46,142 nt of DNA from the NCBI GenBank assembly GCA_017441845.1, contig JAFRVB010000008.1, forward strand, positions 1 to 46,142. Direction: 5' to 3'. Shown piece after piece: positions 30,698 through 46,142 of this stretch (position 1 is its first letter; each line of letters opens with the position of its first letter). The notes below the pieces were generated by a model that was not told the DNA's origin, ran no database searches, and was given only the letters and a program-made list of their open reading frames with translations. The DNA comes from Bacilli bacterium (GTDB lineage: Bacteria; Bacillota_I; Bacilli_A; RF39; UBA660). A program made the translations under genes and the position numbers.

Positions 30698-31717
30698 TTA
30701 ACTTTGAATTGTTGGGATTGCAGGTTGTGCTTCTGGTTGAGGTGCAGCAGGTACAGCCTCTACTTGAGGAACTGCTGGTGCTACAGGTTGAACTTCTGGT
30801 GCTGCTGGAGCAACAGGTGCAACTTCTGGAACCACAGGTTGTGCTTCAGGCATTGCTGGAGCAACAGGTTCTACTGCAGGTGCTACAGTTTGTACTTCTG
30901 GTACAGCTGGAGCAACAGGTTCTACAGCAGGTGCTACAGCTTCAACAGTTGGAACTTGTGGAACAGGTTGTGTATTTTCTAATGGATCAGCTCCACCATA
31001 TATTTGATGTGGTTGATCATCATTGTTTATTTGAATATTATCTACAACTGGACTTGCACCACCATAAATTGTTGGTTGTGCTTCAGGTGCTTGAGGTGCA
31101 ACTTCTGGAGCAACAGGTGCAGGTGCTACTGGTTGAGGCTCTGGTGCAGCAGGTGCTACAGGTGCAACTTCTGGAGTTGCTGGATTAGTAGCCATCACAT
31201 CGCCAGTTGCATCAACTGGTGCAGCATCAGTAGGTAAAATCTTAACGTCAGCCATTGTACCACCATTTTCTTCTGGCATTACAATTGGTTGTGCTGGCTC
31301 AGCTTGTGGTTGAACTTCTACTTGAGGAGTTTCAACTGCTACTGGTTGAGCTTCAACTTGTGGTTGTTCTACTGGTTGATCCATTGGTTGAACCTCAACA
31401 GGTTGTACTTCAACTGGTTGAACTTCTACTGGTTGTTCCATAGGTTGAGCTACAGGTTGAGCCATAGGATCAGGTGCTCCTCCCATTTGCATGTTCATAT
31501 CTTGGTTAAGTTGTTGCATATCAACAGCTTGACCAGTTACAGGATCTACACTTCCTTGTGAATTATCAACTGCCATTGCAGCATCAACTTTAGCTTTCTT
31601 TCCTTTTCTTCCTTGAACAATAACTAAAATCAAGGCTAAAACCAATAATAAAATTCCACCAGTAATTAATAAATTAGGAACTTCAGTGAAAAATTTTAAA
31701 TCAAATAGTATCATCAT
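30698..31717 (-). CDS. membrane-tethered Pro/Val/Glu/Gln/Ala-rich repeat protein
   Basis: About 339 residues. A short N-terminus and one transmembrane segment (LLITGGILLLVLALILVIV) are followed by GRKGKKAK, which predicts an outside N-terminus and a cytosolic C-terminus. The rest is low complexity: three VEVQP repeats, many PVAPA and PEVQP units, and two IYGGA(S/D)P motifs about 30 residues apart near the middle. The layout (N-terminal helix plus long P/Q-rich arm) recalls FtsZ-tethering proteins such as ZipA, but no FtsZ-binding domain is seen; function is unknown. I chose the ATG at 31717, with GGGAGTG 8 nt upstream. GC content is well above its neighbours, and long antisense frames through it are artefacts. 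Confidence 0.75.
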   Translation of the reverse strand: MMILFDLKFFTEVPNLLITGGILLLVLALILVIVQGRKGKKAKVDAAMAVDNSQGSVDPVTGQAVDMQQLNQDMNMQMGGAPDPMAQPVAQPMEQPVEVQPVEVQPVEVQPMDQPVEQPQVEAQPVAVETPQVEVQPQAEPAQPIVMPEENGGTMADVKILPTDAAPVDATGDVMATNPATPEVAPVAPAAPEPQPVAPAPVAPEVAPQAPEAQPTIYGGASPVVDNIQINNDDQPHQIYGGADPLENTQPVPQVPTVEAVAPAVEPVAPAVPEVQTVAPAVEPVAPAMPEAQPVVPEVAPVAPAAPEVQPVAPAVPQVEAVPAAPQPEAQPAIPTIQS

Positions 31718-31758
31718 ATGTAATACACTCCCTTTATTATATTCTATATCTATTATAT

Positions 31759-31787
31759 ATGATATCAAAAAAAAATACGTTATGCAA
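31759..31787 (-). promoter_or_regulatory. promoter of the Pro-rich protein gene
   Basis: On the minus strand TTGCAT (31787-31782), a 17-nt spacer and an extended -10 TGATATCAT (31767-31759). The leader is about 35 nt. Confidence 0.6.
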
Positions 31788-36106: not shown

Positions 36107-36709
36107 ATGAGTAATGCGTCACATAAAAAGAGATATATTACCATGTTTTGTACTCTACTTATAGTATTTACTTGTTTAGTAGTGTTATTCTATCAAATAA
36201 CATATGCGAAATATCATAAAGAAATAACAGGTACTGTAGAGAACGATGTTGCAGATTGGCATATTAAAATAAACAATGAAGATGTATATGGTAAATCTAA
36301 ATTAACTAATACTATTCAAGCTACATTTGAGAATAATAATTATACTAAAGATGGAGTTATAGCTCCTGGATCAGTTGGTTATTTTTATTTAGATATAGAT
36401 GCGACTAATTGTGATGTTGATTTTAACTATACTATTACATTAGCTGTATCACAAGATTCAACATTACAAGATTTAGTACCAACAACATATCAGATAGGTA
36501 CTGGTGGTACTCCAACTGCTTATACTAACTCTGGTATAACTGGTAGTATTGTTAAGAATAGTGCTTCTCAAAGATTTATAATTAATATTAAATGGAATGA
36601 TTCCACTGGACAGACACAAGATAACGCTGCAGATACCGCGATTGGTGCGAATAGTAGTGCAACTGCCTTGATGGAAGTAACGATTAATTTAAGTCAAAAG
36701 ACTAGTTAA
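36107..36709 (+). CDS. TasA/camelysin-like (SipW-type) exported surface protein
   Basis: 200 residues. The N-terminal signal segment (YITMFCTLLIVFTCLVVLFYQITYAKY) runs into KEITGTVENDVADWHIKIN, the A-D-W element typical of SipW-dependent proteins. The beta-sandwich core carries IAPGSVGYFYLDIDA. These are hallmarks of the TasA/CotN/camelysin group, whose members form extracellular fibres after cleavage by a SipW-type signal peptidase. No C-terminal anchor. The gene is on the opposite strand and converges on the operon that encodes such a peptidase (40252-40941), so it is probably one of its substrates. The family call is from the signal and the core motif. Confidence 0.78.
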   Translation: MSNASHKKRYITMFCTLLIVFTCLVVLFYQITYAKYHKEITGTVENDVADWHIKINNEDVYGKSKLTNTIQATFENNNYTKDGVIAPGSVGYFYLDIDATNCDVDFNYTITLAVSQDSTLQDLVPTTYQIGTGGTPTAYTNSGITGSIVKNSASQRFIINIKWNDSTGQTQDNAADTAIGANSSATALMEVTINLSQKTS

Positions 36710-36737
36710 AAAAAGAATCAATTAATTGATTCTTTTT
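36710..36737. terminator. bidirectional terminator between convergent SipW-type gene and repeat-protein gene
   Basis: A 28-base perfect palindrome (AAAAAGAATCAATT with AATTGATTCTTTTT) lies between the two stop codons and works on both strands. Confidence 0.85.
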
Positions 36738-39490
36738 CTTTTGTCTGAAAATAATTCTTTATCGATAGCATTAATTATACTTAAATACTTTTCATCGATA
36801 TCTCCATAAATACTCTTCTTCATAGGAGTAAATTTACGTCCATGTTTTTCATAATCTTCTTTAGATACAACTATTGCATCTACTAAGTTTTCATCATTAC
36901 CAAAGTATTTTTTAAATACTTCATCAGAAATAATTCTATAATCTTTATTATCTTTTTTCTTATAATCATTATATATATCATAAGATAGTAATAATACATT
37001 ATCATTTTGTTTTAAATATTCATCTACAGGTATAGATATTATTTCATCATGATTTTGAGCAAATACATCATATATTTCTTTAGAAACAACTATTCCCCTA
37101 CTATCTTTTAAATATTCATCATAATCTTCATAATTAATAAATTGAGTATGTTCTTCTATATACTTATTATAATCCTCTTCTGAAACAGAAACCTTATCAT
37201 TAGAATACTCATCATAATCATTTAATGAAACGATAATAGGATCTTCATTTTCTAAATAAACTCTCTTAGATACAACAATAGGTTCTTCATCTTTAATATA
37301 TTCATTATATACTTCTTTTGATACTACTTTTCCCTTTTCTTCATCTTTTCTAAAGTACTTATCAAATATTTCTTTAGTAATTATTGTAGTTTCTTCTTCT
37401 AATTCTTTTTCATTTTTATATTCATTATACTTATCAAATGGAATCATAACTATATGATCACTTCTCTTAGCAAATTCCATGAATGGCATAGATATCATAT
37501 CTTCATATTGATTATTATGTTTATTATAATCTTCTAATGAAACTACTATAGCTTCAGTATCATAATCTTTATCAAATATTTCATCATCTACTACTACCAT
37601 AGCTTCTTCATCATCTTTTGAATTAATTAAGAATTCTTCTTCTTTATCAATATTAGAATTAATTACAGGTAATAAGTATTTATTAAAATATTGTCTATAA
37701 TAAACATTATATTCTTCTAAAGATTCTCCTTCTTTTATACTTCTAGGTCTCTTAATATTAGTACCTGAAATATAATCATCCATTGTCTCTACATCTTCTA
37801 CAACACTTACCATATTATCATTTTCCTCTATTACTTCTACTCTATTACCAACTTTAATAGGTTCTACTAAAGTTTCTTTTTCATCATAAACTAATTGTCC
37901 ATTCTTTAATACTTCATAGTTCTCAACAACATGATAATCTTTAATAAAGATGTTATTGTCTCTAATTTCATTAGCTTTTCTATAGCAATCTTTAATCCTT
38001 TGAATTTCATTATCATCAATAGCAGGATTAACACTTCTTTCAACACTAAGTAAAGCTTCAAACATCACTTCATCATCAATACCTTTAGTTAATCCATCTT
38101 CATTAATCTTATTAATATATTCATATAAATCATCTAAATCATACTTATCATCTTCTTTTATACCAATAAGCTCTAAGAATTTATAAGTATTACCTCTATC
38201 ATCATACTTAGTATTATAGAATACTTCTAAATTATCAGATGATCTATATTTTAATTCATTATAAGTTTTTTGATCTAATACTAATGAATTACTAACAGCA
38301 AGTGTTTCATCATAACCATAACACTTTAACATATCTCTAAGTGAATAAATAAAATTACAATATTCTGATCCCAAATTAGGAAAATATAAGTAATTACTAA
38401 AATCTTCACTAAACTTATATTCATCAACATCTATATTAAAATCAACTACTCCTATAGTATCTACACTATATTTAGGATCTGTTACTCTTAATATATTTTT
38501 ATTAGATCCTAGAGAAGAATATCTAAATACTTTTTCTCCAGCTCTTCTAAGTATAGCTGAAAATACATTACTACGATCAGTATTTAAATCATTTTCTCTA
38601 ATATATTTATAAGTCCAAACAATTGCTTCTAAAGGAGAATAAGCTTTATCATGAATATATTCTTCTCCTCCATCTATTAGTCTTAATAAATCAATATATT
38701 CATCTAAACTATTAGAAGCATTTATTTCTAACTGATTATCATAATTAATTAAATTACCAAATGGTTCTCCAGTATAATAATTAATAACTTCAGGATTACT
38801 ACTATATTTAATATTAATATTATTCTTAAATTCTTTTAATTCATCAAATACTCCTCTAGTATCAACTAATACATTACTTAAAAGATTTATATTAATATCT
38901 CTTTTTAATCCTAAAAATTCAAGTTTAGTAATAAATTCATGGTAATAAGATGGATCATATAAATCTAAATCTATTTCTGAATCAATACAGTTATTAGCAT
39001 CCATTACTAATTTACCTATTTCAGTATCATTTAATCTATGAGTTATATGAAATACATCTCTATACTCTTCTTCATCTGAATTTATCTTTTCATATTGCCT
39101 TTTATATATACCTTGACCAGTAAATACTTTAAATAAACTATAATTAAAATTATCTACTCTATCTACATATATAGATTGAGCAAAATCTAGTTTTCTATAA
39201 TCTTCTTCAGTTAATATATAATTTTCATTAATAATTCTAATTCCTGAAGCATTTTTCTCTCTTAAAGCATTAACAATATCATCATCATTTAATAGTTCAG
39301 CGTCTATACTAATAGTTGGGGATAAAGTGCATCTATCTGATCTAATTAAGTTAATTAATGCATTTTTATCAAATTGTAAATTTCTGAAATCTAAAGATAA
39401 GATATCTAAATCTTCATCTTGACCTACAACTCGTAAGTTCCAGTAATCATCATTATATAATAACGAATTTATAACATACTCATTGATCAT
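36722..39490 (-). CDS. large repeat protein of the SipW/McrB-like operon
   Basis: 922 residues, cytosolic by sequence (no signal, no helix). The first 620 residues are not recognised. A stretch at about 285-420 (YSPLEAIVWTYKYIREN; GSEYCNFIYSLRDMLKCYGYD) is laid out like a degenerate transglutaminase-like domain with a central Cys, which I cannot confirm. Residues 628-884 contain about 15 divergent tandem units of 14-22 residues with the core IVVSxEDYxxY (examples AIVVSLEDYNKH, KVVSKEVYNEY, IIVSLNDYDEY). The protein is very acidic. It is the last gene of the operon with the SipW-type peptidase and AAA+ protein; AGGAGG precedes the ATG. Confidence 0.78.
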   Translation of the reverse strand: MINEYVINSLLYNDDYWNLRVVGQDEDLDILSLDFRNLQFDKNALINLIRSDRCTLSPTISIDAELLNDDDIVNALREKNASGIRIINENYILTEEDYRKLDFAQSIYVDRVDNFNYSLFKVFTGQGIYKRQYEKINSDEEEYRDVFHITHRLNDTEIGKLVMDANNCIDSEIDLDLYDPSYYHEFITKLEFLGLKRDININLLSNVLVDTRGVFDELKEFKNNINIKYSSNPEVINYYTGEPFGNLINYDNQLEINASNSLDEYIDLLRLIDGGEEYIHDKAYSPLEAIVWTYKYIRENDLNTDRSNVFSAILRRAGEKVFRYSSLGSNKNILRVTDPKYSVDTIGVVDFNIDVDEYKFSEDFSNYLYFPNLGSEYCNFIYSLRDMLKCYGYDETLAVSNSLVLDQKTYNELKYRSSDNLEVFYNTKYDDRGNTYKFLELIGIKEDDKYDLDDLYEYINKINEDGLTKGIDDEVMFEALLSVERSVNPAIDDNEIQRIKDCYRKANEIRDNNIFIKDYHVVENYEVLKNGQLVYDEKETLVEPIKVGNRVEVIEENDNMVSVVEDVETMDDYISGTNIKRPRSIKEGESLEEYNVYYRQYFNKYLLPVINSNIDKEEEFLINSKDDEEAMVVVDDEIFDKDYDTEAIVVSLEDYNKHNNQYEDMISMPFMEFAKRSDHIVMIPFDKYNEYKNEKELEEETTIITKEIFDKYFRKDEEKGKVVSKEVYNEYIKDEEPIVVSKRVYLENEDPIIVSLNDYDEYSNDKVSVSEEDYNKYIEEHTQFINYEDYDEYLKDSRGIVVSKEIYDVFAQNHDEIISIPVDEYLKQNDNVLLLSYDIYNDYKKKDNKDYRIISDEVFKKYFGNDENLVDAIVVSKEDYEKHGRKFTPMKKSIYGDIDEKYLSIINAIDKELFSDKRKRIN
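36839..37609 (-). repeat. coding repeats, about 15 VVSxEDYxxY units
   Basis: Codes for residues 628-884 of the 922-residue protein. Units of 14-22 residues begin with three or four aliphatic residues, then S/P/T, two variable residues (often K/E and E/D), then Y or F and three residues later another Y/F/H. The DNA is not a simple repeat; the copies are diverged. Confidence 0.8.
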
Positions 39491-39500
39491 AATTTACCTC

Positions 39501-40268
39501 CTAACTATTATTTTGAACAGCTCTTAAACCAACTGTAAAGTTAAAACATGTATCTGAATGACTAGCTTCATAATCACCACAGAATTCTCCGATATAACTA
39601 TCTATATCATCTTTTACCATATATAAATTATTTACCATAGATGAATAAGTACTCGATGTGACGGTCGCTTTTGAATAAGTCGAACCACTCAAAGTGTAGT
39701 AATCCCAATCATCTGTATATGGTAAGATAGGTATTACTTTATAATATTTATTTGTCTCATTAAATGGCCAGTATATTTGAACAGTAAAGTCTGCGCTATC
39801 GATATAATCTAAATTAATTTTAGTTGATGAAAAGGCCACTTTAAATGGATAATCATCAGCTAGAGCAGCCGATATTGCGGATGAATTAGACTCATCAGCA
39901 AACATTCTTTGTCCACCAAAGTAAATATCTTTAGGTGTCCATACAACAGTAGCTCCAGTATCAGAAGCATTAGTTATAGTTATTGTTTTTTCAACACTTT
40001 GCATACCCGGATAAATCTCAGGCGTAATCACAACATTCTTAACTAAAGCTGATCCATCATAGAAGTTTAAGTCCCAAGCAGCTACATTCGCATCTGTATG
40101 AATTTGGGCTTCAGAAATATAAACAAACCAAGCAAATACGTTCACGCCAAAAAGGAATAAAACTAACAAGAATGTTCTAACGCCCATTCTTTTTTTAATG
40201 CGTTTTACTCTTTCATAGTCTTTTTCTAGTTGCTCGTAAGATGTCTCATTTCTAAATAACTTCTTCAT
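39501..40268 (-). CDS. TasA/camelysin-like (SipW-type) surface protein with long cytosolic head
   Basis: About 255 residues. A charged head of about 30 residues (NETSYEQLEKDYERVKRIKK) precedes the hydrophobic segment (VRTFLLVLFLFGVNVFAWFVYI) and HTDANVAAWDLNFYDG, again the A-A-W SipW-type element. The ectodomain is beta-rich with VITPEIYPGMQSVEKTITITN, as in camelysin-like cores, and a Cys pair near the end (EFCGDYE, DTCFNF). The ATG at 40268 is used; the TTG at 40271 adds one residue. It overlaps the signal peptidase gene by 17 nt, so peptidase and substrate are cotranslated. Confidence 0.82.
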   Translation of the reverse strand: MKKLFRNETSYEQLEKDYERVKRIKKRMGVRTFLLVLFLFGVNVFAWFVYISEAQIHTDANVAAWDLNFYDGSALVKNVVITPEIYPGMQSVEKTITITNASDTGATVVWTPKDIYFGGQRMFADESNSSAISAALADDYPFKVAFSSTKINLDYIDSADFTVQIYWPFNETNKYYKVIPILPYTDDWDYYTLSGSTYSKATVTSSTYSSMVNNLYMVKDDIDSYIGEFCGDYEASHSDTCFNFTVGLRAVQNNS

Positions 40269-40941
40269 CAAACTCTTGTTTCTCTTCTTCTTCGCTCCTT
40301 ATCAATTCTTCTATCTCTTCTACTTTTTCTTCTTTCTTGTCTTCTTTTTCTTTTATTTCTTTTTCTATTCTAATCAATTCTTCTTTATCTAATTTTAATG
40401 CTAATCTAGTTTCAATTACTTCTAAACATATTATTAATACCAATGGTAAAAATATTAAGAAGAAGAAACCAAATATATTCTTTAAGATATGATTTATTGG
40501 AGTAATAATTGGTATAACCTCAACTACTCTACCGAGTACTTGTTCTGGTCCAATAGAAGGATCTGTTCCTTCAGCATTCAAACCTTGAGTAAATATTCTT
40601 TCTACTTTCCCATTAGATTTATCTATCTTAATAATTCTATGGGAAACAACTAATCCTTCAACTCCTCCTCTTTTACCAACATAAACAATATCTTCTCCTA
40701 CTTGTAAAGTATTAACATTACAATCTTTAACTAAGATAACATCATTTACGTTATATACAGGAATCATTGATCCTGAAGCTACAGAGAATACTCTATAACC
40801 AAATATACTACTATTATTAGTGATCTTTTGAATCGCTATAAATAATATGTAACTAGCAAGTATAAATATAAGTACAACTTTTATAATATTAAATACTATT
40901 CTAAAATATGTATTCTCAAAGAGATCTAATACTTTTGTCAT
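40252..40941 (-). CDS. SipW-type (Ser/His) signal peptidase I
   Basis: 229 residues. The ER/archaeal-type signal peptidase I motifs are present: SVASGSMIPVYNVND with Ser58 before Met as nucleophile, VVSHRII with His101 in place of the bacterial Lys, and TQGLNAEGTDPS with Asp127. This class (SipW) processes TasA-like substrates rather than general precursors. There is one membrane segment at about 18-38 and another at about 150-172. An unusual C-terminal tail of about 50 residues is almost all Glu, Lys, Arg and Ile (KEELIRIEKEIKEKEDK...), probably a coiled coil in the cytosol. The start overlaps the DUF2357 gene as ATGA. Confidence 0.92.
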   Translation of the reverse strand: MTKVLDLFENTYFRIVFNIIKVVLIFILASYILFIAIQKITNNSSIFGYRVFSVASGSMIPVYNVNDVILVKDCNVNTLQVGEDIVYVGKRGGVEGLVVSHRIIKIDKSNGKVERIFTQGLNAEGTDPSIGPEQVLGRVVEVIPIITPINHILKNIFGFFFLIFLPLVLIICLEVIETRLALKLDKEELIRIEKEIKEKEDKKEEKVEEIEELIRSEEEEKQEFDEEVI

Positions 40942-42038
40942 TGATAATCTCCTTTAAGAAGATAAATCATATCACTAATCTTTTTCTCTTCACTATCTAA
41001 TCTATCTCTTAAAATATTATAAATACTCTTTCTCTTATCTTTATTTATACTCTTAATTTTATCTATTTCTTTATTAACTTTTACTTTTAATTCATCTTCT
41101 TCTATAGGAGCAGCACTCTCTATAATATTTTCAATGAATCTATCAATCATATCAGTAATAACTCTATCATAGTTATTAGTCTCAGCAGTATCTTCAATTA
41201 AAGCATTAGCTGTATATAACATCATGAACATCTGATTATATTGATTTCTTAATTCAGAATCATCTAAATAATCTTTTTTATCTTTCTCAGTCTTATCTTT
41301 AGATTCAAATGTTTGAATATAATTCCATAATTTCTCTGCTTGTTGGAAATTAGGGTTTTTCAAGATAACATTTGTCTTACGAATAGGACTTCTAACTGGA
41401 GAAACATGTAAGTGAGTTAGAGTTTTATGTAATTCAGTTTGAGTAAATCCATCTAACTGTAATTTTACTTTTTTAAGTCTATCACTGATAGTTTCTCCAT
41501 GTTCATTAACTATTTCTTTTGAGTCTCTTGCGATAGATGAGAATACTACATCTATTTTCATATTCTCAATACCTATATTAGTATTCGCAGTATAGTTAAA
41601 ATATTTTTTATCTTGAAACAATGAATTAAGACCAGTTTCTTTAGTTCTCATCTGATAGAACAATCTCATATTTTCAATTAGTGTATAAACAAATCTATTT
41701 TCATATGTATCAAGTGACTCATCTTTATTGATATTTAAGACTTTACTAGGTTTAACTTCATTAGTATCTTCGTTGTAATCTTGGATTAAGTTAGTATGTT
41801 GTGTTAAATGGATAATTGATTCAACAGTAGTCTTTTTAGATTGCTCTACTTTAACAATCTCTTCTTCATTGATAATGAATCTTTTCGGATTACGTAAGAT
41901 ATTATCAATATAAGGTAAAGCTGTTTCAATCTTTTCAAGCCATTCATAATCATATTGCATATTTTGATAATCTCTTTTAACTAATAATGTCGAATTAAGA
42001 TTCTCAAAGAAATCATCTTGATTGAATTCATTATCCAT
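40938..42038 (-). CDS. DUF2357 (McrC-like) protein, no nuclease motif seen
   Basis: 366 residues. The DUF2357 signature PSKVLNINKDESLDTYENRFVYTLIE is at about 97-122; it is the conserved part of McrC and McrC-like partners of McrB AAA+ proteins. The rest is helical and charged. The PD-(D/E)xK nuclease of restriction-type McrC proteins is not visible. It follows the McrB-like gene by 12 nt and overlaps the signal peptidase gene by 4 nt (ATGA). In classical McrBC the McrC part stimulates the AAA+ hydrolysis, and it may do so here. Confidence 0.85.
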   Translation of the reverse strand: MDNEFNQDDFFENLNSTLLVKRDYQNMQYDYEWLEKIETALPYIDNILRNPKRFIINEEEIVKVEQSKKTTVESIIHLTQHTNLIQDYNEDTNEVKPSKVLNINKDESLDTYENRFVYTLIENMRLFYQMRTKETGLNSLFQDKKYFNYTANTNIGIENMKIDVVFSSIARDSKEIVNEHGETISDRLKKVKLQLDGFTQTELHKTLTHLHVSPVRSPIRKTNVILKNPNFQQAEKLWNYIQTFESKDKTEKDKKDYLDDSELRNQYNQMFMMLYTANALIEDTAETNNYDRVITDMIDRFIENIIESAAPIEEDELKVKVNKEIDKIKSINKDKRKSIYNILRDRLDSEEKKISDMIYLLKGDYQ

Positions 42039-42050
42039 AGATCACACCTC

Positions 42051-43655
42051 CTATACCATCTTTTTAAGTCTTAATAAATACTCCTTACATTCATTAAAGT
42101 GTTCTTTTCCAAAACTCTTATCTAAATATTCAACAAACCCATCTATTTCATCTCTAATATAAGCTAAGTTTAACTGTTCAAACTTACGTAAGATTTTTCT
42201 GGCTATATAGTAGTCAACCCCATCTACTTCAGTTCCTCCACATTCTACATATGTTGCGACAAAGTCTTTCATTTGTTTAACGATACGGTTACCGAACGCT
42301 ATACGGAAATGTTTAATTACGTATTCGTCCATTTCATTAATTTTGTTTTCCATATCAGTAGATAATGGATTATTCTCTTTAGCTTTATTAAATAAGCCTT
42401 CTAAGTAACTTGAATTAATATTTATCGCATCCGTATCTTCTGGTTCAAATGGAGGGAATTTTTCGTTGATATCTATTGGCATAGCACGGTCGTACACTTT
42501 ATCAGTAACGGCGAATGTTGAATCGTCGTTATTGATTGTTCCGATATACCACATATTATCAGGAATTTGTAATTTACCACCATTTAATCCAACTGGGTCA
42601 TTATCCCAAGAGTTAGGAACTAACTCGATTATCCACTCATCACGAGATGGCATCTCTAAGATAGATAACATTTCTGCGAAGTAGTACTCAACACGGGCGA
42701 TGTTCATCTCGTCCAAGACTACTGCGTAAACATCATCAGTATAGTTAGCTTCATACATTGCTCTTAACACTTCTGTTTCATTGAACTTCTTAGTGAACTC
42801 GTTGAAGTAACCAAAAAGTTCAGTTCTATCTCTCCAAGACGGTTGAACAGAAGCAATTATCGCATCATTCTTTATAAATTTACCCCAAGCATAAGCAAGT
42901 GATGTTTTACCTGTACCAGAGATACCTTGTAAGATAATAAGTCTTGTAGCAGACATACCTGAGATAAATAATCTCATCATATCAGTCGTATAATAAAGTC
43001 TTAACTTAGAAGCAGCAAATTGTCTAAATGTTTCACATAACTCTTCTAAAGTAAAGGTATTACCATACTCTTGAACTTTATAATTCATATATTTAACATC
43101 GATAGCGTGTAATTTAGAGAATCTAGCATTTGGATCATCAATAACAATATTGTTTTTGTTTTCTCCTTCTTCTCCTTCTAGTTCTTCTCCTTCGCCACCC
43201 ATAACTTCAACAGAACCTGAAACATTAACATTAGAAGTACCACCAGCTGCGACTGCAACACCTTCTGTTGGAGATAATCCAATCTGTGATACTTTCATAG
43301 CAAGCAACTTATCTTTTTCATCACTAAGTTTAACAACTTCTTTTTGTAAATTACCAATCTCTTCTAATAAAGATTCTTCCTTCACAAGTGTCTTTCTAAA
43401 TCTGATATATTTACGTAGGGCAAAGAATAATACCAATATTATTAACCCTAAAATAATAAGTAATAAGATAATTGCGATTACTACAAGTATCCATTCTGCA
43501 GCATGTAAATCATTATGATAATTACTAACTACATAAGCATATTGTCTAAAATCAAACATTTGCGCTATACCTGATACTAATCCTTGGAAAATCTTACCTA
43601 TTCCACCAAAGAAAACAGACATAAACTCATATAAAAATCTTATAAATGTATCCAT
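42051..43655 (-). CDS. membrane-anchored McrB-like AAA+ GTPase/ATPase
   Basis: 534 residues. N-terminal amphipathic region, one strong membrane segment (about 54-80), a coiled coil (about 90-120) and an acidic Gly/Glu linker (about 130-170) precede an McrB-type AAA+ domain. The motifs are Walker A GISGTGKTS (244-252), the family element WRDRTELFGYFN (274-285), Walker B VVLDEMN (312-318) followed by IARVEYYFAEMLSILE, sensor 1 GTINNDDS (372-379) and DR at 389-390. Classical McrB has a DNA-binding N-domain; here it is replaced by a membrane anchor. GTP versus ATP use is open. It overlaps the upstream unknown gene by TAATG. Confidence 0.88.
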   Translation of the reverse strand: MDTFIRFLYEFMSVFFGGIGKIFQGLVSGIAQMFDFRQYAYVVSNYHNDLHAAEWILVVIAIILLLIILGLIILVLFFALRKYIRFRKTLVKEESLLEEIGNLQKEVVKLSDEKDKLLAMKVSQIGLSPTEGVAVAAGGTSNVNVSGSVEVMGGEGEELEGEEGENKNNIVIDDPNARFSKLHAIDVKYMNYKVQEYGNTFTLEELCETFRQFAASKLRLYYTTDMMRLFISGMSATRLIILQGISGTGKTSLAYAWGKFIKNDAIIASVQPSWRDRTELFGYFNEFTKKFNETEVLRAMYEANYTDDVYAVVLDEMNIARVEYYFAEMLSILEMPSRDEWIIELVPNSWDNDPVGLNGGKLQIPDNMWYIGTINNDDSTFAVTDKVYDRAMPIDINEKFPPFEPEDTDAININSSYLEGLFNKAKENNPLSTDMENKINEMDEYVIKHFRIAFGNRIVKQMKDFVATYVECGGTEVDGVDYYIARKILRKFEQLNLAYIRDEIDGFVEYLDKSFGKEHFNECKEYLLRLKKMV

Positions 43656-44692
43656 TAGCTTTCCTCCTTATATATAAGTAAAGATTTACCATCCAAAAAC
43701 TTATATCCCTTTAAATAATCATAATCTCTTTCTTTCCATCCACATACCAAAGTATTTGCGCAACCTAAGTTCTTACATGCTTCTAGTTTTAATCCAATGT
43801 CGTTAATATATGTAAAATCTACTTTGATAGTTAAGTTATAGTTAAGAGTATCTAATTTCTCTTTACCATCTTTAATCACATCAAATGGTAAAATCAAATA
43901 TAGATGTTGTCTTAACATATTATTATCGAGTAATCTAATTAACTCTTCATTCAGTACTCCTCGTTTGAAAATATCTTTATCAAGTGATAAGAAATATTTC
44001 CTTTCTATTTTTTTATCTCTTATCATATCGTTTAATATCATCAATGAGAATTTTTGTATTGATGTTTTCCATCTATCTAAATCTAATCTATCATCATGAA
44101 ATACTTCTTTTATCATGAATCTCTTATACTTTCTTAAAGCATCTATATTTTCATTAAGTACTAACTTATAGCACTTATCTCCATTATCTATTCTGTCAAA
44201 ACTCAAAGTATAATATTCATCTTCCATACCAATAAACTTATTAATTCTATCTAGATAGTTTTCATATATCTTAATAACTTTATCAATATCTATTTCATAA
44301 TTTTCAAATATCTTTTTAATATCTTCTTGCCATGTATTATTAAATTTAATTTTATCTAGTTTAATTAAGTCTAATGAGAAATTTCTCATATCATGAAGCA
44401 TCTTTACTTTTTTCTTATATAACTGATTATCATCAACTAATTCAAATGCTTCATATTCTTTTAATAGTTCAATAAGTAAACCATCAAATTCTTTTTCTAA
44501 AACTCCTACTCCAAACAAACTATTATCTTTAACAGTATGCTTTATTCCGTAGTAGTAATTATCAATATAAGTATTTATAAATCTAGCAGTATTTTCCTCT
44601 ACAAAATACTGTTCTTGAGAAAAATAGACTACGGCAATACGACTATAGGTTTTAACCATATAGTCCATGTACACATTTATTAAATTGTCCAT
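43655..44692 (-). CDS. unknown partner of the McrB-like ATPase
   Basis: About 346 residues, cytosolic, not recognised. Helix-rich first half (INVYMDYMVKTYSRIAVVYFSQEQ; EKEFDGLLIELLKEYEAFELVDD) and a second half with mixed beta/alpha (YLILPFDVIKD, YNLTIKVDFTYINDIGLKLEACKNLGCANTLVCGWKERDYDYLKGYKF). The ATG at 44692 is chosen because GGGGTGATAAGC precedes it; the ATG at 44716 has no site. TAATG coupling to the McrB-like gene and an internal extended -10 at 44720-44728 suggest that this gene and those downstream can be made independently of the two surface proteins upstream. Confidence 0.78.
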   Translation of the reverse strand: MDNLINVYMDYMVKTYSRIAVVYFSQEQYFVEENTARFINTYIDNYYYGIKHTVKDNSLFGVGVLEKEFDGLLIELLKEYEAFELVDDNQLYKKKVKMLHDMRNFSLDLIKLDKIKFNNTWQEDIKKIFENYEIDIDKVIKIYENYLDRINKFIGMEDEYYTLSFDRIDNGDKCYKLVLNENIDALRKYKRFMIKEVFHDDRLDLDRWKTSIQKFSLMILNDMIRDKKIERKYFLSLDKDIFKRGVLNEELIRLLDNNMLRQHLYLILPFDVIKDGKEKLDTLNYNLTIKVDFTYINDIGLKLEACKNLGCANTLVCGWKERDYDYLKGYKFLDGKSLLIYKEES

Positions 44693-44719
44693 GCTTATCA
44701 CCCCTATTATTCTCATTTT

Positions 44720-44728
44720 ATTATATCA
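44720..44728 (-). promoter_or_regulatory. internal extended -10 promoter within the SipW/McrB-like operon
   Basis: The minus strand reads TGATATAAT in the gap between the upstream surface-protein gene and the 43655-44692 gene. Confidence 0.5.
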
Positions 44729-44730
44729 TA

Positions 44731-45645
44731 TTAAGACGGTGTTGTGGCAACAACATTGATGATTGGTGTCTGCCCGTTTACACCAGTATATGTATAGTTT
44801 GCGGTAATATCTGTCTTATAGAAAATTACCTTAGTATTACTATTAGGATCTACCTTAAACGAATACTTCTTAACATACTGGTTAGAACCAATTGTTTGTT
44901 CTTGATAATCGGTATTCAACCGATTGTGATATGTATTACTAGTCATATCTAAAAGTACATCTGTCGGATCAAAAGTTAAGACTATGATCGCTGAATAACA
45001 TTGTGATTGTTGTGCTGGAGTCAATTGTTCATATTCTTGAACAGTTTTTTGAACTCCATTACAATCATAATATCCAATCGAGTTAGTTAAGTTCAAAGTA
45101 CAGAACTTATCTCCTACCGCATCCTCTATTGAATAAGAGAAATTAGCTTTTTGAACTCCTAAGTGATATGTCGCAGATATCTCTTTCTTATACGGATAAT
45201 CACTAATTGCTTTAGTAGTTATCGTAACTGTATCCCCTGCTTCAAATGTTTGAAGTGGTGTAACGTTAATCGTATAAGAATCTGTATGATCATCTTTATA
45301 GATTGTTCCTCTATTTTTACTTGGAGTACATCTAACAGATGTTGGACAAATTACCACAATATCATAAGTAATATCACTAGTAGTATATACTTCATCATTC
45401 TTCTTATTATTAACATCTATCGTAAAAGGATAACTATTAACTCCATCCCAGTTATTAATACTATAACTTTTACCATTTAGTCTTAATACGGAACTGTTAA
45501 AATAAAATCCTTTAGATTCAATGATATAATTATGAATAACGTTATATACATATCTACCAAAAGTAACACTAATAATAAGAAATATTAATAGTCCTACCAG
45601 GATAATGATACTAAGTTTTCTATTTTCTTGAATCTTTCTTATCAT
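44731..45645 (-). CDS. SipW-type exported surface protein
   Basis: 304 residues. N-terminal membrane segment (LSIIILVGLLIFLIISVTFG), then RYVYNVIHNYIIESKGFYFNSSVL, a pattern that recurs at the start of SipW-associated surface proteins. The ectodomain is beta-rich, with Thr/Asn-rich strands and several cysteines (VICPTSVRCTPSK, DKFCTLNL, YYDCNGVQ, QSQCYSAI) that may form disulfides. No C-terminal anchor. AGGAG overlaps the stop of the upstream gene. Probable fibre or sheath component processed by the downstream peptidase. Confidence 0.78.
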   Translation of the reverse strand: MIRKIQENRKLSIIILVGLLIFLIISVTFGRYVYNVIHNYIIESKGFYFNSSVLRLNGKSYSINNWDGVNSYPFTIDVNNKKNDEVYTTSDITYDIVVICPTSVRCTPSKNRGTIYKDDHTDSYTINVTPLQTFEAGDTVTITTKAISDYPYKKEISATYHLGVQKANFSYSIEDAVGDKFCTLNLTNSIGYYDCNGVQKTVQEYEQLTPAQQSQCYSAIIVLTFDPTDVLLDMTSNTYHNRLNTDYQEQTIGSNQYVKKYSFKVDPNSNTKVIFYKTDITANYTYTGVNGQTPIINVVATTPS

Positions 45646-45653
45646 AATTACTC

Positions 45654-46142
45654 CTAAATAACTTGTTTTGAATTAATAATTACCTCTATATTCTCAGTTA
45701 TATCAACATATGTTGTATCTATTGCATAAGATGCTGGAAATTTAATGACTAATTCAAATACATCTTTAGTATTAGAATTATAATTCATTGGATAATCATC
45801 TGACTCAGTATAAAGTCTATACCAAGCTCCATCAGCATCTCGTCTCAACGTAGGACTACCAATAATATTAGTAGCTCCTGTATCGTCATAACTTTCATTT
45901 CTATATAATTCAATCTCCAAAGGAAGATTAGTTGTACTACGTATATTGATGTTATAAGTTAAATCAACATCACTAGTCTGAGTAGTATTATAGTTTTGAA
46001 CACTAAATGTATAAGTATAAGGATCAGCACTAGGTATTATTTTATTCTCATCAATATTGAAACTTAATCTTTCTTCTTCAAAAATATAAATAGCTTTATC
46101 AATATCAGCTCTTAATTTAGCTGTAGTAATATAACTACCATA
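45654..46142 (-). CDS. SipW-type surface protein, partial (runs off the right edge)
   Basis: The frame is open from the stop at 45654 to the window end; translated from the edge it begins YGSYITTAKLRADIDKAIYI. An internal TTG at 45920 is not the start. Visible elements: PYTYTFSVQN, VDLTYNINIRSTTNLPLEIELYRN, and a beta-sandwich ending TENIEVIINSKQVI. These strands (S-DVDLTYNI, TTNLPL-I-LY) recur in SipW-associated surface proteins of gut Bacillota. The N-terminus and signal lie outside the window. Confidence 0.78.
   Translation of the reverse strand, partial: YGSYITTAKLRADIDKAIYIFEEERLSFNIDENKIIPSADPYTYTFSVQNYNTTQTSDVDLTYNINIRSTTNLPLEIELYRNESYDDTGATNIIGSPTLRRDADGAWYRLYTESDDYPMNYNSNTKDVFELVIKFPASYAIDTTYVDITENIEVIINSKQVI

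Follow-up and report, generated by a model that had tools for sequence, protein, structure and literature searches.

Organization of the Locus

The window analyzed here is a stretch of 46,142 nucleotides (contig C4, positions 1-46142) from a genome assembly of 784 kb that is 68% complete. Among named genomes, its close relatives are uncultured Bacilli, Erysipelotrichaceae and 'Tenericutes' MAGs from gut and rumen. An operon on the minus strand encodes, in the order of transcription, a 205-aa preprotein whose gene is cut by the window end (45654-46142; the whole gene lies at L002:15655-16272), a 304-aa preprotein with an N-terminal transmembrane segment (44731-45645), a 345-aa protein that we label X346 (43655-44692), a 534-aa membrane-anchored AAA+ protein of the McrB family (42051-43655), a 366-aa DUF2357 (McrC N-terminal domain) protein (40938-42038), a 229-aa SipW-type signal peptidase (40252-40941), a 256-aa secreted or anchored preprotein with a VFAWF motif (39501-40271) and a 922-aa acidic repeat protein (36722-39490).

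The gene coordinates were checked, and the genes and their close spacing are as the first-pass annotation had described. The DUF2357 and SipW genes overlap by ATGA, the X346 and AAA+ genes share TAATG, and the remaining junctions are gaps of 8-38 nt or small overlaps. The best start for X346 is the ATG at 44692, with the ribosome-binding site AGGGGTG. The extent given earlier for the operon (36722-46142) is too short, as the operon runs past the window end and the block of surface genes continues for ∼23 kb more, to ∼69.6 kb on the contig. Beyond the window this block contains more SipW genes as well as genes for a sortase, a vWA protein and two giants (1214 and ∼1468 aa or more). A sortase-like protein with the motif TLVTCTP is encoded just past the window end (L002:17002-17907), together with large pilin-like or vWA proteins. 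A scan of the locus for promoters and terminators gave no excess relative to shuffled sequence.

The 922-aa repeat protein looks cytosolic and accessory. Orthologues were detected only in close relatives within the same genus, and three named loci have a protein of similar size at the corresponding position. A 200-aa preprotein is transcribed divergently on the plus strand (36107-36709), and across the family related loci have a preprotein of about this size at the same position and in the same orientation (L020-L027 and L076-L083). Unrelated to the operon, positions 30698-31768 of the window encode a 356-aa membrane protein with a long repeat tail rich in Pro, Gln, Val and Glu.

The AAA+ Protein and Its DUF2357 Partner

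The AAA+ protein has a Walker A motif (GISGTGKTS), a Walker B motif (VLDEMN) and the NxD-type McrB signature NNDD. Residues Asn-375, Asp-377 and Asp-378 are invariant among 38 homologues, in which the Walker A and Walker B motifs are also conserved. A profile of the family compared with the PDB matched McrB (E = 3.9e-6) and nothing else convincingly. The N terminus contains a hydrophobic segment and one strong transmembrane helix (residues 56-74), followed by the sequence RKYIRFRK, coiled-coil-type heptads (∼84-120, by inspection), a low-complexity linker and the AAA+ domain (∼178-534). According to the positive-inside rule, applied to the helix and RKYIRFRK, the AAA+ domain should be cytosolic. 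No DNA- or modified-base-binding domain was found in a domain search of the N-terminal part; the transmembrane helix and coiled coil stand where McrB has its DNA-binding domain, in agreement with the earlier description of a membrane-anchored protein lacking such a domain. The 25 Pfam families that the 38 homologues matched most often did not include DivIC/FtsB. Full-length homologues were absent from 72,556 plasmids and 50,697 phage records, which yielded AAA cores only, and plasmid- or phage-borne defence was rejected as a candidate.

The DUF2357 protein matches Pfam PF09823 (E = 1.7e-10). Its AlphaFold model (pLDDT 82) resembles McrC from Escherichia coli and Thermococcus, with Z values of 7.9 for 6hz4_M and 7.7 for 6ut5_G/6ut6_G (model residues 25-248; 137-144 residues aligned), and unrelated entries in the same comparison scored 6.2 or less. 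The matches are limited to the N-terminal half of McrC. The Z values are middling, and it is together with the Pfam hit that they identify the predicted domain. Residues 260-366 are all helical in the model, the C-terminal helix (336-365) being modeled at low confidence, and relatives have long charged C-terminal extensions. These extensions account for the outcome of a search of the PDB with a DUF2357 profile, which returned coiled-coil noise only, so that the structural route was the one that worked. No nuclease domain was detected, either as a Pfam match or in the model, which consists of the N-terminal half of McrC plus helices; the first-pass annotation had likewise seen none. Longer DUF2357 partners scanned in relatives contain DUF2357 as the only domain found.

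Signal Peptidase and Preproteins

The SipW protein scores above the cut-off of TIGR02228 (E = 1.5e-17), the model for S26 archaeal/ER-type signal peptidases. It also matches the SipW model NF046067 (E = 1.3e-15), although at 57 of the 190 bits required by the equivalog cut-off of that model. Ser and His residues are visible in the sequence, which has two transmembrane segments (19-37 and 158-176) and a charged, cytosolic C-terminal tail. The 256-aa preprotein occupies a conserved place directly after SipW. The 304-aa preprotein is found directly upstream of X346, or of a SipW-X346 fusion, in the family of the window.

The SipW peptidase and the nearby preproteins are conserved, and the earlier view that the company of the AAA+ gene is secretory is supported. 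The label of SipW-type or TasA-like surface proteins draws on an N-terminal transmembrane segment, a FAWF motif in one protein and the genomic context. TasA and camelysin models did not match any of the three window preproteins, and identification of these as TasA by sequence was not supported by the model searches. Among 32 proteins of the family, two match camelysin PF12389 (3.3e-6).

X346 Has a Predicted Degenerate EAL Fold

X346, described earlier as an unknown protein of 346 residues, indeed matched no sequence family, including Pfam EAL. The AlphaFold model of the 345-aa protein (pLDDT 82, pTM 0.81) nevertheless adds a candidate regulatory element: an N-terminal helical domain (residues 1-155) is followed by a degenerate EAL fold (157-345). 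Foldseek returned EAL matches at a probability of 1.00 (best E = 2.6e-4), and VIA-align gave Z values up to 12.7 (177 residues, root mean square deviation 3.8), with RbdA, FimX and LapD among the matches. Comparison with EAL by hhalign was weak (probability 9%), although it scored above the controls and aligned in the correct register, in which the EAL catalytic residues are missing from X346. The homology of X346 to EAL would be structural, as judged from the model, with a weak profile comparison.

EAL proteins of related operons range from those with 8/8 catalytic residues, through 6-7/8, to 0-3/8, and they appear to bridge the gap between X346 and EAL sequences. In at least 11 loci (4 plus 7 more labeled) X346 forms the C-terminal part of the signal peptidase in a SipW-X346 fusion gene. 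Outside the window's family GGDEF-EAL proteins stand in place of X346. A search of five genomes of the window's family, the window's own (68% complete) and four with a completeness of 93% or more, found no recognizable EAL gene; all five carry X346, and the window's own genome contains one GGDEF match. In seven genomes 14 of 39 EAL genes lie within 10 kb of an AAA+ gene, relative to 1.0 expected, in a test that treats genes as independent and so overstates its p value.

In these fusions, the segment that joins SipW to the EAL-like part contains 1-3 copies of a motif resembling [DE][LI]xKTx[LMF][FY]R[IV][IV][SP]V[DN] (L024:7003-9438, L025:10522-12918, L077:6797-8827 and L081:5962-8100; fused loci L144, L147 and L168). 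The motif may perhaps be a docking site.

Conservation and Subtypes

The first-pass annotation had proposed counting how often these genes occur together. A class-wide search found the AAA+ protein in 146 of the 395 genomes sampled from the window's class; it also occurs in Clostridia, and its carriers among gut and rumen bacteria number in the hundreds. Within 51 loci that were read, DUF2357 is found in 49 and SipW in 46. A further count used 80 named loci from Bacilli and Clostridia records, which are best matches and are therefore biased to close relatives; here SipW (78/80), DUF2357 (77/80), preproteins (71/80) and X346 (54/80) lie no more than five genes from the AAA+ gene. Conservation of the neighborhood is therefore strong, and it extends over many Bacilli families and to Clostridia. 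Most loci of at least 10 families, and named records of Bacilli and Clostridia, have the order preproteins - SipW or X346 - AAA+ - DUF2357 - SipW - preprotein, and in the window's own family X346 and SipW are constant operon partners of the AAA+ protein.

Because HMMs for preproteins and SipW may drift during iteration, we recomputed the principal SipW statistics using TIGR02228, a curated model. Of the 49 genes that match it in 12 genomes, 26 are within 5 kb of an AAA+ gene, whereas 0.65 would be expected (binomial p ∼8e-36, an overstatement because the test assumes independent genes, which SipW copies sharing an operon are not).

Three subtypes can be distinguished, sharing the AAA+ protein, DUF2357 and surface proteins, with EAL present in the first two. 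Subtype I, the kind seen in the window, is the SipW type. Subtype II is without SipW and consists of a giant of at least 2,471 aa with a C-terminal transmembrane segment, a degenerate GGDEF-EAL protein, AAA+ and DUF2357; in a tree it is nested inside the SipW clade. Subtype III has two or three AAA+ copies, DUF2357 and YDG-repeat giants. Both SipW-less subtypes still adjoin giant surface proteins. At L063, L072, L069 and L071 giants of at least about 2,470-2,650 aa, incomplete in the stretches read, lie directly upstream of degenerate GGDEF-EAL, AAA+ and DUF2357 genes, without SipW. Tandem AAA+ copies at L074, L075, L092, L059 and L094 often resemble one another more closely than they resemble the copies of other genomes, a pattern that suggests concerted evolution, and some tandem-copy loci have a third, diverged copy.

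Comparison with Known Systems

The pairing of McrB and DUF2357 with fibre proteins had been thought undescribed. It has in fact been named: Bell et al. 2024 (PMC11090510) devote one paragraph to 'CoCoPALM', an NxD-type McrB fused to transmembrane and coiled-coil segments and associated with signal peptidases. Further traits given there are an FtsB-homologous fusion and a coiled coil also on the McrC homologue. The window locus shares with CoCoPALM the NxD McrB-like domain, its fusion to a transmembrane segment and coiled coil, the DUF2357 partner and the signal peptidase in the operon. The main text of Bell et al. does not mention SipW, TasA, EAL or GGDEF, and no follow-up paper on CoCoPALM was found in the literature collection searched; we therefore regard the locus as a variant of a kind that has been named but not studied. 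What is new here is the EAL link, the SipW-EAL fusions, the short nuclease-less DUF2357 partner and the conserved preprotein context, together with the frequencies and subtypes.

McrBC is a textbook system of DNA restriction. The window proteins resemble McrBC of E. coli and Thermococcus in the AAA+ core and the McrC N-terminal fold, but they have no DNA-binding domain and no PD-(D/E)xK nuclease, carry NxD rather than NxxD, and have a membrane anchor. Type IV restriction at this locus was accordingly rejected on the lack of a nuclease and a DNA-binding domain.

The tapA-sipW-tasA operon of Bacillus subtilis is similar in having a dedicated SipW-type signal peptidase and secreted preproteins, but the window preproteins are not recognizable as TasA by sequence. 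To our knowledge, tapA-sipW-tasA has no AAA+, DUF2357 or EAL partner, and we know of no NTP-driven machine in the SipW/TasA pathway. By its predicted fold X346 can be likened to FimX and LapD, which have an EAL fold without catalytic residues and a link to surface structures (type IV pili and the LapA adhesin, respectively); X346 differs from them in its helical N-terminal domain and its tie to SipW and McrB.

Proposed Role of the Module

We consider it probable that the module is of the CoCoPALM type and that its McrB-family ring acts in the biogenesis or control of surface structures, not in DNA restriction. A more specific proposal, which we put forward tentatively, is that a ring of McrB and the activator half of McrC, a putative GTPase, serves as a membrane engine for the production of Gram-positive surface fibres, with a degenerate EAL receptor, in some loci fused to the signal peptidase, as its gate. 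It would then be an energized, second-messenger-controlled counterpart of the SipW/TasA pathway. Six AAA+ subunits would form a membrane-tethered ring at the cytosolic face of the membrane. By analogy with the action of McrC on McrB, DUF2357 would insert in the ring and stimulate NTP hydrolysis. Coiled coils and SipW tail would relay the stroke to the preproteins, which would in this way be licensed for processing, for release from the membrane or for assembly. The EAL-like protein, or GGDEF-EAL in relatives, could be the regulatory input, a non-catalytic receptor like FimX or LapD. Sequences and models support the components, hints of topology, fusions and conservation on which this scheme draws.

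Which step is driven is held more loosely than the broad role, the evidence pointing two ways. The SipW-X346 fusions point to processing, whereas the surface proteins themselves may be the target in subtype II, which is without SipW. Indeed, SipW cannot be the sole target, as the AAA+/DUF2357 pair of two subtypes occurs without it. Preprotein processing or release as the driven step is a rather speculative option.

Subtype II also bears on a narrower version of the broad surface role, overlapping with it, in which AAA+/DUF2357 is a general surface regulator linked to c-di-GMP, a LapD-like inside-out switch that alters membrane proteins in their state without driving processing, SipW and the preproteins being one of several clients. 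EAL proteins, including degenerate ones with 0-3/8 catalytic residues, adjoin AAA+ at the four SipW-less loci L063, L069, L071 and L072; the giants preceding the EAL/AAA+/DUF2357 unit have a short cytosolic tail after the C-terminal transmembrane segment, and the nesting of subtype II within the SipW clade is in keeping with such a switch. In the window's family, however, the EAL-like domain adjoins or is fused to SipW, in favor of the processing step, and we regard this narrower version as doubtful.

The McrBC lineage of AAA+ and DUF2357 could also recall defence. In an anti-phage system of CoCoNuT/McrBC type, anchoring and the secreted proteins would provide effectors or sensors, and the peptidase would free or activate an effector on infection. 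CoCoNuT relatives are predicted defence systems (PMC11090510), and the PADLOC candidate model PDC-M26A matches all 38 homologues (E = 1.6e-37 for the window protein), but the match spans the AAA core only. Moreover, nuclease-less CoCoNuTs always have another nuclease adjacent (PMC11090510), whereas no CoCoNuT-type HEPN, other nuclease or DNA-binding domain is present among the window operon proteins, and the longer DUF2357 partners scanned bring no further domain. With full-length homologues also absent from the plasmid and phage collections, an anti-phage function is improbable.

Quality control, with AAA+/DUF2357 as an unfoldase that extracts misfolded or stalled preproteins and not as a builder, is likewise improbable: the operon has many secreted preproteins and membrane-anchored AAA+ proteins such as FtsH do pull proteins from the membrane, but no protease domain or adaptor was found in the conserved operon, and the McrC stalk, which engages the McrB hexamer and occupies its pore, argues against threading.

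The preferred reading, a surface role for a CoCoPALM-type ring, points to the redeployment of a restriction-type engine in the construction or control of surface structures. It describes a widespread branch of McrBC that has kept motor and activator, has lost DNA binding and cleavage, and travels with a signal peptidase, surface proteins and EAL-type regulators, which cautions against annotating such AAA+/DUF2357 genes as restriction or defence. The regulator, motor and peptidase form a concrete unit that is testable in laboratory hosts. Most of the carriers are uncultured bacteria of gut and rumen, and very little work has been done on their surface structures; if the reading is true, they would provide a clear example of a defence engine put to new use at the cell surface.
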